Shown here: one piece after another, positions 43,368-52,271 of the stretch
Layout: each line of letters opens with the position of its first letter
How positions within the stretch are numbered: the first letter of the stretch is position 1
From: an uncultured Poribacteria bacterium
GTDB taxonomy: Bacteria; Poribacteria; WGA-4E; WGA-3G
Reading direction: 5' to 3'
Length of the DNA stretch: 64,000 nucleotides
Assembly: GCA_951828385.1 (NCBI GenBank)
Contig: OX639973.1
Coordinates: forward strand, 4,455,200 to 4,519,199
The notes under the pieces: generated by a model
Seen by the model: only the letters and a program-made list of their open reading frames with translations
Databases searched by the model: none
What the model was told of the DNA's origin: nothing
Program-made: the position numbers and the translations under genes

Positions 43368-43397
43368 TTGATAAACCTTTTATTTTTCTGCTATAAT
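43368..43397 (+). promoter_or_regulatory. Promoter of IS607 tnpA, possibly leaderless
   Basis: TTGATA (43368-43373), 18-base spacer, TATAAT (43392-43397); predicted start at about 43404, the A of the start codon. No Shine-Dalgarno precedes it. Confidence 0.5.
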
Positions 43398-43403
43398 ATA
43401 TGT

Positions 43404-44078
43404 ATGAATAACAGATTTGTTAAGATTGGCGAAGCTGCTAAACTCTTAGGTATGTCCGTTCAGGCACTTCGGAATTGGGAAATGGAAGGTAAAATCATGC
43501 CTTCTCACCGCACGCCCGGCGGTCAACGTATGTATGATTTAGCAGAACTCTTAGGTGTAAATGATTTGACCTATCCTACGATTGGTTATGCCCGCGTCTC
43601 GAGTTCGGATCAAAAGGAAGATTTAGAACGTCAGCATGCTGTCCTTGAGGCATTTTGTAATAAGAAGGGTTGGCAGACTGAAATCATAAGAGACCTCGGC
43701 AGTGGAAACCTGAATTACCATAAGAAAGGCTTACTCCGCCTCCTTGAGTTACTGGTGCGGGGTCAAATGTCGCGTCTGGTTATCACACATAAGGACAGAC
43801 TCCTTCGCTTTGGTGCAGAGATCGTTTTTCGTATCTGTGAACTCAAAGGTATAGAGGTTGTCATTATCAACAAAGGTGAGCAGCCTTCTTTAGAGGAAGA
43901 ACTCACACAAGATGTCCTGGAAATCATGACTGTATTTTGTGCGAAACTCTACGGACGACGTTCTCATAAGTCAAAGAAAATGGCAGAAGAAATAGAGAAG
44001 ATCGTCTCCGAAGAAAAACAGCAATTGGAACTACATTTTGGCACTCCGCACACAGAAAATAGCACTGAATCCGAATAA
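43404..44078 (+). CDS. tnpA: IS607-family serine recombinase (TnpA)
   Basis: 224 residues. MerR-like helix-turn-helix (FVKIGEAAKLLGMSVQALRN then WEMEGKIMPSHRTPGGQRMY) followed by a serine resolvase catalytic domain: IGYARVSSSDQKEDLERQ with the nucleophilic Ser, then LVITHKDRLLRFGAEIVFR. This is the classical IS607 TnpA layout, which makes double-strand cuts without long target repeats. ATG 43404 fits the promoter and MerR start. The 3' end overlaps tnpB by 41 bases. Confidence 0.92.
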   Translation: MNNRFVKIGEAAKLLGMSVQALRNWEMEGKIMPSHRTPGGQRMYDLAELLGVNDLTYPTIGYARVSSSDQKEDLERQHAVLEAFCNKKGWQTEIIRDLGSGNLNYHKKGLLRLLELLVRGQMSRLVITHKDRLLRFGAEIVFRICELKGIEVVIINKGEQPSLEEELTQDVLEIMTVFCAKLYGRRSHKSKKMAEEIEKIVSEEKQQLELHFGTPHTENSTESE

Positions 44079-45129
44079 CAAGCAATCCACGCTTATGTCT
44101 GAACATGCTGGCTATGCCCGTGTTGCCTTCAACTTTGGTTTGTCGTCTTTTAAAGTCGGCTTAGACCAAGACGAATGGCGAAGTCATGTTGACATAAAGC
44201 GTGAGTTTAACGCTGTCAAATACGATAAGTTTCACTGGTGTAAAGACCTCTCACAGAATGCGTCTAAGAATGCTATCCACAATCTTGGAGACGCTGTAAC
44301 CCGTTGGAAAAAAGGACAAAACAAGTTCCCCGTCTATAAGAACCGATCTGGTAAATGCTCTTACCAAGCAGACAATGGCTACGGAACTGTTGAAGTCCAT
44401 AAGAAACGTATCAACCTTCCGAAAATAGGGTGGATACGCATGCGTGAGGCACTGCGCTGGACAGGTGAAATCACCAAGGTCGTTGTGTCAAAGCACAATG
44501 ACAAATGGTATGCTTCTATCACGGTGAGACGCCTCGATAGCAACAACTACAAGCACCAGTCTGTCCTATTTGACGACAGACACCCTATCGGCATAGACGT
44601 AGGGATCAATACGCTTGCGACCTGTTCTAATGGCGATATTTACGACAACCCACGCCCCCTAAAGCGATATGAGCGGAAGTTAGCACGCGAAAATCGGAAG
44701 TTCGCACGTAAGCAGAAAGGCAGTCAGAATTGGCATAAGCAGAAAAAACGCTTATCAGCCGTCTATGCGCGTATCGCGAATATCCGTGAAGACGCTCACC
44801 ACCAAGCGACAATCCGGATTGTCCGCAAAGCAAGTGCTATCGGTATTGAGACACTGAACATTTCGGGTATGCTCAAGAACCCAAAGATAGCTAAAGCCTT
44901 ATCGGATTCAGCACTTGCCGGATTTCTGTCTAAACTCAAATACAAAGCAGATAGACGCGGGATACCCGTAGACGAAGCCGATAGGTTCTTTGCGAGTTCT
45001 AAAACCTGTAGCCACTGCGGACAGAAAAAAGCAGATTTGCTGCTTTCTCAACGCACCTATCACTGCTCCGAATGTGGCTTTGACTGCGATAGAGACCTAA
45101 ACGCGGCTATCAATCTATGTCCCGCTTGA
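44038..45129 (+). CDS. tnpB: TnpB RNA-guided nuclease (IS607-associated)
   Basis: 363 residues. OrfB/TnpB nuclease, ancestor of Cas12. RuvC residues are present: IGIDVGINTLATCSNG (Asp), IGIETLNISGML (Glu), CDRDLNAAINL (Asp). A zinc ribbon CSHCGQKK ... CSECGFDC splits the third RuvC motif. The N-terminus KIALNPNNKQ is typical. TTG start at 44038 inside tnpA; no other start retains the N-terminus. In known TnpB elements the guide RNA is encoded over the 3' end of the gene and right end of the element. Probably active. Confidence 0.9.
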   Translation: MALRTQKIALNPNNKQSTLMSEHAGYARVAFNFGLSSFKVGLDQDEWRSHVDIKREFNAVKYDKFHWCKDLSQNASKNAIHNLGDAVTRWKKGQNKFPVYKNRSGKCSYQADNGYGTVEVHKKRINLPKIGWIRMREALRWTGEITKVVVSKHNDKWYASITVRRLDSNNYKHQSVLFDDRHPIGIDVGINTLATCSNGDIYDNPRPLKRYERKLARENRKFARKQKGSQNWHKQKKRLSAVYARIANIREDAHHQATIRIVRKASAIGIETLNISGMLKNPKIAKALSDSALAGFLSKLKYKADRRGIPVDEADRFFASSKTCSHCGQKKADLLLSQRTYHCSECGFDCDRDLNAAINLCPA

Positions 45130-49555: not shown

Positions 49556-49849
49556 ATGCCTAAATTCGTTTCTGCCCATGCTATTGCCTGCATGACTCGC
49601 CAAGATGTGGCGCGGCTGCTGAAGCGGTTCAAGGAAGAAGAAAACACGGATGTTCGGAATATCCGGGTCTTGTGTGATACGCTGTCCGGCAGAATGGTCT
49701 GTGAGTGGGAAGCACGGGACCGCGTTGTCTTAGTCGAATGGCTGAAGAAATGCAACGTCCAGATACGTGGAACAGGCGAATGGCTCATGGCAGTCCAATA
49801 TGAATCTGTAGGCGATGAACTCGTGACACCTCAGCGGGATAACCTGTAA
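49556..49849 (+). CDS. Small DUF4242-like protein
   Basis: 97 residues, soluble, predicted alpha/beta. MPKFVSAHAIACMTRQDVAR, RIRVLCDTLSGRMVCEWEA in related form (NIRVLCDTLSGRMVCEWEAR), then NVQIRGTGEWLMAVQY. It resembles small ferredoxin-fold proteins of the DUF4242 type, but I am unsure. It lies upstream of the PTPS gene with a 35-base gap on the same strand. No strong ribosome site. Confidence 0.55.
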   Translation: MPKFVSAHAIACMTRQDVARLLKRFKEEENTDVRNIRVLCDTLSGRMVCEWEARDRVVLVEWLKKCNVQIRGTGEWLMAVQYESVGDELVTPQRDNL

Positions 49850-49884: not shown

Positions 49885-50712
49885 ATGTACTACTTAACCC
49901 GGCAGGCCGCGTTTGAAGCATCACATTACAATCGTATCCCTGAATTGGGCGATGCCGAGAATTTTGCGTTGTTCGGTGCCGCCGCAAATCCAAATAGCCA
50001 CGGACACAACTATGTGCTTGAAGTGATGGTGAAGGGCGAGGTCGATGCAGATGACGGCATGGTTATCAATCTGGTAACGTTGGATGCCTTGTTGAAGTCG
50101 GAAGTGCTTGCCAATTACGATCACAAACATCTGAATCGTCAACACCCGGTTTTCGCAAAAAATCCGCACCTGCAACCGACGTGTGAGAACATCGTTATGG
50201 AGATTTGGCAACGACTCGTCCCTTCTCTGCCGGATGCGACGTTGCACAGGGTGCGACTCTACGAAAGCACCTCTAATTTTGCCGACTATTATGGGGATGG
50301 ACCGATGGTTTATCTGACCAAGGTTTACGAGTTTAGCGCAGCCCACCGCTTACATAGCCACGCGCTCAGTGACGAGGAAAATCAAGACATCTTTGGAAAG
50401 TGCAATAACCCGGCTGGACATGGACATAACTACGTTCTTGAAGTTACTGTAAAGGGGGACGTAGATAAGAGAACCGGGCTGGTTGCAGGTCTGAATTTTC
50501 TTGATGAAGTCGTTCAAAAACAGGTCTATGCGCGCTTCGATTACAAGCATCTCAATATTGATACGCCTGAATTTGAGACGCTTAACCCAACCTCGGAAAA
50601 TTTCGTCAAAGTACTTTGGGAGGTATTAGCACCGAATTTACGTCCGGTGGTTTTACATCGCCTTCGCTTGAGAGAAACGCCGAAAAATCACTTTGATTAC
50701 TACGGCGCGTAA
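49885..50712 (+). CDS. Tandem-domain 6-pyruvoyltetrahydropterin synthase with split catalytic residues
   Basis: 275 residues: two PTPS/QueD domains (about 1-137 and 141-275). PTPS converts 7,8-dihydroneopterin triphosphate to 6-pyruvoyltetrahydropterin. Both domains keep zinc His (FEASH, HGHNY; FSAAH, HGHNY) and the pterin-anchor Glu (RLYEST; RLRET). The catalytic triad Cys-Asp-His is split: domain 1 has AAANP instead of KCNNP (no Cys) but keeps YDHKHLN; domain 2 has GKCNNP (Cys173) but FDYKHLN (His to Tyr220). The KCNNP-x-GHGHNY segment and surrounding residues are strikingly like animal PTPS. folE follows. Confidence 0.93.
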
Positions 50713-50747
50713 CCTATTTTATCCGAGAAGTGCGGCTAAATAGCGCA

Positions 50748-51347
50748 ATGGAGACAAACTTTAATACAATGAAGCTTGAACAGGAGCCTCCGAACCCAGA
50801 ATTAGCGGATCTCTTCACCAAAATTATTAAAAATTTAGGTGAAGATCCGAGTCGTGAAGGCTTAGTGAAAACACCGATCCGTGCCGCGAAAGCGATGGAA
50901 TTTCTAACAAGCGGCTACCATCAAAATGTTGATAATATTTTGAATGGGGCGATCTTTGATGAAGATTACGACGAGATGGTGATCGTGAAGGAGATCGAAT
51001 TTTATAGTCTCTGTGAACATCATATCCTCCCTTTTTGGGGCAAATGTCACGTCGGGTATCTCCCGCGGAATCGGATTGTAGGTTTGAGTAAAATCCCGCG
51101 TATCGTCGATATGTTTTCCCGGCGGTTGCAAGTCCAAGAACGTCTCACACGTGAGATCGCCGAGGCACTCGAAACTGCTCTTGACCCGCGCGGTGTTGCG
51201 GTTGTGATGGAGGGTCAACACTTGTGCATGATGGCACGGGGTGTGGAAAAGCAGGCACCAAGAATGACAACAAATGTCATGCGTGGGGCATTCCGAGAGG
51301 ATAGTTCAACGCGTGCGGAGTTTTTGAGGTGCGTCCAAATATCCTAA
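50748..51347 (+). CDS. folE: GTP cyclohydrolase I (FolE)
   Basis: 199 residues. Converts GTP to 7,8-dihydroneopterin triphosphate, the substrate of PTPS/QueD. Conserved features: [20 protein letters not shown], the zinc-binding [20 protein letters not shown] then [23 protein letters not shown] then QERLT, and [18 protein letters not shown]. It follows the tandem PTPS gene by 35 bases, on the same strand. ATG 50748 is chosen; a nearer ribosome site (GGAGAC) would fit ATG 50769, which loses only a short N-terminal tail. Confidence 0.95.
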
Positions 51348-51453: not shown

Positions 51454-51506
51454 CTTTTTTGTCATTGTGAGCAGATTCAAACGCGTAATAGAATGTAGAG
51501 GTGAGC

Positions 51507-52271
51507 ATGGTTTCTTCGAGCCATCCGAATGCACCAGAAATAGTGAAACTTGACGGAAAGGTCGTCGTGGTTACCGGCGCGTCAAAAGGGATTGGTAAAG
51601 CGATCGCATCCGCTTTCGCAGCAGCAGGCGCGAAGGTTGTGCTCGCTGCCCGAACACGTGAAACGCTTGAACAGGTTGCAGCTGAGCTTAGCGTAGGAGG
51701 GGTTTCTAACCCCGATTCCATACTGGCTGTTCCGACGGATGTCACTGACGTAGATGCCGTACAGCGACTCATTGAACAGGCACTCGATACATATCAACGT
51801 GTGGATATTCTCGTCAACAACGCCGGGATCGGTTATTTCGGACCCGTCGTCGATTTCGCACCTGACGATTGGGATACGGTGCTCAATTCCAATTTGAAGG
51901 CGGTTTATCTCTGCGCGAAGTACGCACTGCCATCTATGTTAGCACACGGCAGTGGACAGATTATTAACGTACTATCGATCGCTGCGAAGGTTGCGTTTGA
52001 AGCCTCAGCGGCTTATTGCGCCGCGAAGGCAGGTGCGTTAGCACTGACGAAAGTTTTAGCCGCCGAAGTCCGTCAACAGAATATTCGGGTTACCGCGGTA
52101 CTACCGGGTTCGGTGCATACCCCGTTTTGGGATGGCATTCCAGCACATCCAGACTTTGAACAGATGCTTAAACCTGAACATGTCGCGGATACGGTTGTTT
52201 CTGTCTGCCAGCAACCGCTTGGCATGGTAACCGAAGAGATTGTCGTCATGCCGCCACTCGGAATCCTCTAA
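51507..52271 (+). CDS. Short-chain dehydrogenase/reductase
   Basis: 254 residues, classical SDR: TGASKGIGKAIA (NAD(P) loop), DILVNNAGIG (NNAG), catalytic Ser in INVLSIAAKV, and YCAAKAG (Tyr-x3-Lys). Cytoplasmic oxidoreductase; substrate unknown. It lies after folE and PTPS, so sepiapterin-reductase-like activity is possible but not shown. An in-frame palindromic stretch (GGGGTTTCTAACCCC, 51699-51713) encodes SVGGVSNPDS after the second helix and may be a repeat insertion. ATG 51507 has AGAGGTGA upstream. Confidence 0.88.
   Translation: MVSSSHPNAPEIVKLDGKVVVVTGASKGIGKAIASAFAAAGAKVVLAARTRETLEQVAAELSVGGVSNPDSILAVPTDVTDVDAVQRLIEQALDTYQRVDILVNNAGIGYFGPVVDFAPDDWDTVLNSNLKAVYLCAKYALPSMLAHGSGQIINVLSIAAKVAFEASAAYCAAKAGALALTKVLAAEVRQQNIRVTAVLPGSVHTPFWDGIPAHPDFEQMLKPEHVADTVVSVCQQPLGMVTEEIVVMPPLGIL

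Follow-up and report, generated by a model that had tools for sequence, protein, structure and literature searches.

The window, by which we mean the whole 64,000-nucleotide stretch of poribacterial DNA that was analysed, carries a gene for a tandem PTPS followed on the same strand by FolE and an SDR oxidoreductase (Table 1). The PTPS profile PF01242 matches the encoded protein in two stretches, scoring 201.7 bits against a curated cut-off of 22.4, which places it in the PTPS/COG0720 family, and the AF2 model shows two confident domain folds (pLDDT 95.4, pTM 0.90). The small ORF directly upstream is conserved, together with a rhodanese gene, in most of the close relatives that were compared. 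Elsewhere in the window, a recombinase ORF overlapping a TnpB-like ORF resembles an IS607-family element.

Table 1. Features of the tandem PTPS locus and of its surroundings (D1 and D2, domains 1 and 2).
Feature	Position in window	Strand	Basis
MerR-type/serine-recombinase ORF overlapping TnpB-like ORF	43368-45129		
97-aa ORF, no known family	49556-49849		
Tandem PTPS gene, 275 aa + stop	49885-50712	+	ORF; PF01242 matching twice, E 3.6e-60
D1, residues 1-139, proposed Asp-His donor	49885-50301	+	Rat PTPS alignment
D1 zinc His 14, 39, 41	49924-49926, 49999-50001, 50005-50007	+	HHH in 148/154 tandems
Ala33 codon, D1 place of catalytic Cys (KCNNP position)	49981-49983	+	Alignment
Asp79-His80, catalytic pair retained in D1	50119-50124	+	62/62 in Poribacteria; 23/23 in rows without D2 pair
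D2, residues 141-275, proposed zinc/Cys/Glu domain	50305-50709	+	PTPS-II motif CxxxxxHGH; rat/human PTPS best match, TMt 0.94
D2 zinc His 154, 179, 181	50344-50346, 50419-50421, 50425-50427	+	HHH in 154/154 tandems
Cys173, catalytic Cys of D2	50401-50403	+	154/154 tandems
Asp219-Tyr220, altered Asp-His pair of D2	50539-50544	+	Tyr in 44/46 family members, both Tyr codons in use
FolE, GTP cyclohydrolase I, makes PTPS substrate	50730-51347	+	TIGR00063 249.7 bits, cut-off 181.6; adjacency kept across phyla
SDR oxidoreductase, candidate sepiapterin-reductase-like step	51501-52271	+	adh_short 2.2e-58; operon position conserved

In the alignment with rat PTPS (1b66), Ala33 of D1 and Cys173 of D2 fall on the catalytic Cys, and Asp79-His80 and Asp219-Tyr220 on its Asp-His pair. 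Each domain has the three zinc His expected of PTPS/COG0720 proteins as well as the pterin-anchoring Glu (Glu127 in D1, Glu264 in D2). A full Cys-Asp-His triad is present in neither domain taken singly, as D1 is without the Cys and D2 without the His, and is obtained only across both. In agreement with the original prediction, which had been made from the letters alone, the ORF translation and this alignment returned all of its residue calls and its numbering.

The genes for PTPS, FolE, and SDR are adjacent in Poribacteria and Chloroflexota, including at the loci of the three-domain protein described below, and follow the order FolE-PTPS-SDR in Bacillota. We regard them as a putative BH4-type gene set with the SDR as candidate sepiapterin reductase, and the predicted product of the tandem is 6-pyruvoyl-tetrahydropterin for a BH4-like pterin. 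The PTPS-II motif is CxxxxxHGH and that of QueD is CxxxHGH (PMC5041015). D2 carries the former (CNNPAGHGH) and D1 a version without the Cys (ANPNSHGH); the PTPS-I/QueD motif is found in neither. When the QueD equivalog model TIGR03367 (cut-off 89.25 bits) was applied, the single domains scored 59.3 and 62.4 bits and their sum 114.4. Because the cut-off is passed only by summing two domains, the automatic naming of tandem PTPS as QueD is unreliable, and such labels should be treated with caution in annotation.

It could nevertheless be argued that the tandem is mainly a QueD (6-carboxytetrahydropterin synthase) serving queuosine, and not a BH4-type PTPS. The window's genome also encodes QueC, QueF, TGT, and a QueE-like protein, and no PF01242/COG0720 protein was found in it besides the tandem, which may therefore double as QueD. 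Likewise, Biopterin_H (aromatic amino acid hydroxylase) was not found in 50 genomes, a result on which BH4 supply to such a hydroxylase was also rejected. Against this reading stand the PTPS-II spacing of the D2 motif, an operon containing FolE and SDR instead of queC or queE, and an equivalog cut-off reached only by adding domains (59 and 62 bits versus 89), and we consider it unlikely that QueD is the main function. This alternative concerns the product and not the architecture of the site, and both functions may coexist. A PTPS-III folate bypass was ruled out, as ExxHGH is absent and FolB is encoded in the genome. Our literature search found nothing linking Poribacteria and tetrahydrobiopterin.

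The tandem PTPS is present in 74 of the 83 genomes of the class and its residue pattern is kept in 62 poribacterial tandems, which excludes a sequencing accident. A decayed pseudogene was also ruled out, since the ORF is intact in these 74 genomes, with one split into two frames, and the key codons vary synonymously. The split gene (L051; genome G068, contig C122, genus g8) appears to consist of two overlapping frames, from a frameshift or an assembly error. Among the 62 proteins, position 33 is never Cys, so that the D1 Cys loss is old and universal in Poribacteria; Asp79-His80 and Cys173 are found in all of them (62/62 each). Position 220, on the other hand, is Tyr in 47, His in 13, and Phe in 2. 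Within the window's own family we found Tyr220 in 44 of 46 members, Asp219 in 46/46, His14 in 45/46, and His39 and His41 in 46/46, figures to be read against the 41-49% or so of alignment columns that do not vary at family level; the codon at position 80 shows synonymous change alone (CAC/CAT). His220 is present in genus g2 of this family (L031, L064) and in most of families f2-f4, one f4 member has Phe at this position, and the D2 pairs of family f5 read DY, GF, HY, and DY. Glu127 is missing in genus g2, and His14 in L032. Thus, the proposed loss of the D2 His holds for the protein in the window but is not uniform, and the idea that the two losses are a matched, complementary pair could not be maintained: the D2 His change is later than the D1 Cys loss, recurrent, and lineage-specific.

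Dual-domain PTPS is widespread, occurring in Chloroflexota, Cyanobacteria, Bacillota, Armatimonadota, and others, and in Acidobacteriota and Bacteroidota the equivalent pair consists of two adjacent unfused genes. Among 154 distinct tandem proteins, the D2 Cys, the D2 zinc ligands, and the D2 Glu are invariant, and none has lost both Asp-His pairs together. In a set of 74 rows, the D1 pair is kept in all 23 that are without the D2 pair (three phyla), where only 22 of 138 D1 columns are invariant, and the D2 pair is kept in all 29 that are without the D1 pair. Rows without the D2 pair show Y, F, L, G, and H at position 220, with variation at position 219 as well. Parsimony on the tree gives at least six changes of the D2 pair, three of the D1 pair, eight of the D1 Cys, and none of the D2 Cys. 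With five independent (starred) pairs available on this tree, paired sign tests are underpowered. One scan (80 loci) was seeded with the KCNNP and HGHNY motifs and is therefore biased toward retained Cys and zinc, whereas the poribacterial, chloroflexotal, phage, and three-domain cases come from unseeded genome searches.

The search for homologues with the same split, suggested at the outset as a check, was successful in Poribacteria, Chloroflexota, a phage, and a three-domain protein. In Chloroflexus, the D1-Cys/D2-His split of Poribacteria is seen separately. In the unfused pairs of Acidobacteriota, gene 1 has both elements and gene 2 has the Cys and is without Asp-His in three of four rows, which suggests a hetero-oligomer whose second gene mostly keeps the Cys without Asp-His. 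Adjacent unfused PTPS pairs of this phylum lie upstream of FolE (L074, L077, L086, L087, and L089). Full triads in both copies are found in Herpetosiphon (L091/L180), Nitrospirota (L090), and the unfused Bacteroidota pairs. Such homologues had been named beforehand as evidence that would defeat a composite site; they do exist, but they probably represent the ancestral state and, if so, leave the idea standing. The opposite pattern is seen in Cyanobacteria, Bacillota, and Armatimonadota, in which the D1 His is lost, the D2 triad is complete, and the D1 Cys is often lost too. L081 has lost the D1 His, the D1 zinc ligands, and the D1 Cys and keeps a full D2 triad.

Two further kinds of protein bear on how the domains cooperate. 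A 143.9-kb contig (C1 of genome G038) with genes for a portal protein, terminase large subunit, tail, DNA polymerase, and ribonucleotide reductase is evidently a phage, and encodes a divergent tandem PTPS (L190:2547-3296). FDHK survives in its D1, from which the zinc ligands, the Cys, and the PTxEN motif are gone; in its D2, by contrast, zinc and Cys are present and Asp-His is missing. With this copy as query we found no relative in phage records, and no related tandem in IMG/VR, where the matches were of single-domain length. In addition, two Chloroflexota genomes (L187:1471-2730 on the minus strand, and L189) encode proteins, 84% identical to each other, with three PTPS domains in one chain (three PF01242 stretches), followed downstream by FolE and SDR; a plasmid search with this protein gave no match. 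Of the three, the middle domain is complete; domain 1 retains FDHRH but neither zinc ligands nor Cys, and domain 3 retains zinc and Cys, with VAFKR in place of Asp-His. Matching the Cys of each domain (i) to the Asp-His of the one before it (i-1) gives two complete internal junctions and a closing junction that is without every part; if the partner is instead sought inside the same domain or in the next one (i+1), some residues remain unpaired. The phage and three-domain cases are the strongest comparative evidence that the D1 Asp-His may serve the D2 zinc/Cys site.

Taken together, these data make it probable, in our view, that the tandem is a PTPS-II-type dual-domain enzyme in which one triad is common to both T-fold domains, with Asp-His from D1 and zinc and Cys from D2. 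D2 would hold the zinc through His154, 179, and 181 and provide Cys173 as the base and Glu264 as the anchor of the pterin, and D1 would give Asp79-His80 to this site, replacing the neighbouring subunit of ordinary PTPS. The site would most likely be located at the D1-D2 junction within one chain, as in bimodular QueF; we favour this intrachain junction because no residue of the three-domain protein is left unpaired when each Cys is matched with the Asp-His of the preceding domain. Contact between these residues in the folded protein, activity at the composite site, the junction that forms it, and its product are all inferred. One composite site per pair had already been proposed for this protein, and this part gains comparative support, sharpest in the phage tandem and the three-domain protein, although Tyr220 itself is later and lineage-specific. 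Complementary essential residues conserved in homologues, as an interdomain composite site demands, were seen in the Poribacteria/Chloroflexota branch only, and in sister families whose D2 triad is complete the enzyme could do without D1. No evidence supports the obligate trimer of dimers that had been envisaged with it, and side-by-side two-domain chains alone cannot make up a closed ring of three domains. The second potential site, comprising the D1 zinc, Ala33, and the D2 Asp-Tyr, is probably no normal PTPS site, since the catalytic Cys is missing; conservation of Tyr220 and of the D1 zinc within the family means, however, that this site does not just drift freely. In the tandem and three-domain proteins, simple point mutants make the old claim of an intersubunit Cys-Asp-His triad in PTPS testable.

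An alternative explanation is that D2 alone is the enzyme, working in a homotypic D2 ring in which Tyr220 replaces His, and that D1 is a structural pseudo-domain; the same arrangement is proposed below for the cyanobacterial and Bacillota tandems. The full D2 triad in 29/29 tandems without the D1 His, with L081 also devoid of D1 zinc ligands and Cys, agrees with this, as do the conservation of Tyr220 in the family (44/46) and the closer resemblance of animal PTPS to D2. However, such a role for D1 does not account for the retention of its Asp-His in all 62 poribacterial tandems despite the absence of the D1 Cys, nor for the first domains of the phage and three-domain proteins, which retain Asp-His after zinc loss. 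Moreover, a Tyr acting in place of His is difficult to reconcile with the variety of residues at position 220 (Y, F, L, G, H) in rows without the pair and with the changes at position 219. We judge this explanation to be quite improbable. Very doubtful is the existence of two differing sites per chain, one canonical and composite and one remodelled (D1 zinc, Ala33, Glu127, and D2 Asp219-Tyr220) for pterin binding or another step: the D1 zinc His, Asp219, and Tyr220 are under purifying selection in the family (His14 45/46; His39, His41, and Asp219 46/46; Tyr220 44/46) with synonymous codon change, but genus g2 is without Glu127 and L032 without His14, the phage and three-domain members discard the D1 zinc altogether, and conservation within a family that has about 41-49% invariant columns overall is weak evidence.

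Returning to the composite site as the preferred reading, its scope has to be set against the opposite split. With the D1 His lost and the D2 triad complete, D2 of the Cyanobacteria, Bacillota, and Armatimonadota proteins must pair with the D2 of another chain, and a single quaternary geometry cannot explain every tandem. Homogeneous-ring and four-domain-ring models were considered, and neither accommodates both branches. Probably the quaternary structure is not the same in the two branches, unless one assembly can make both kinds of contact. We give an even chance to a broader scheme in which the intersubunit site was split in two opposite ways. The trans mode, D2 Cys with D1 Asp-His, would comprise Poribacteria, Chloroflexota, the unfused Acidobacteriota pairs, the phage, and the single-chain three-domain ring, and the homotypic mode, D2 with D2, would comprise Cyanobacteria, Bacillota, and Armatimonadota. 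The series would run from two full copies through fusion to a domain that donates only Asp-His, and in Poribacteria the second zinc site would have been remodelled (Ala33/Tyr220). It would offer a natural mutational series in which a homomeric enzyme with inter-subunit sites turns into an asymmetric fusion whose sites are fewer and composite.

Among the closest known systems are the animal PTPS (rat 1b66/1gtq, human 3i2b), which share with D2 the fold (TMt 0.94), 41% of the sequence, the zinc His, the Cys, and the Glu. They differ in being single-domain homohexamers with six identical complete sites, each with its triad between subunits, as the title of Burgisser et al. (1995), cited in PMC7546909 and PMC2229834, describes for PTPS. 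The original prediction had known of no described case of this kind. However, according to the papers that cite it (PMC5041015, PMC5227711, PMC3546692), the work of Kong et al. (2006, FEBS Lett 580:4900) already reported, by its title, PTPS orthologues with one or two domains in bacterial BH4 synthesis, the dual-domain form being bPTPS-II, and PMC5041015 refers to it for the activity of Synechococcus PTPS-II. The cyanobacterial dual-domain proteins that we analysed, without the D1 His and with a full D2 triad, show the opposite split to that of the window's protein. Bimodular QueF of V. cholerae and E. coli, of the same fold superfamily, likewise has a split interdomain site (PMC5372742). It resembles the tandem PTPS in its tandem T-folds, but is an NADPH nitrile reductase with no zinc and other residues, homologous at the level of the fold superfamily only. 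Foldseek also aligned the tandem models with uricase over most of their length (TM 0.43-0.46, about 260 columns), and the Nostoc tandem model with GCYH-IB and uricase (TM about 0.45). Urate oxidase and GCYH-IB have other chemistry and 6-10% identity, and these matches fit side-by-side T-folds, if weakly. Judged by the literature searched, three points appear to be new: the splitting of the PTPS triad, the two opposite ways in which this is solved, and the forms found in a phage and in a three-domain protein.
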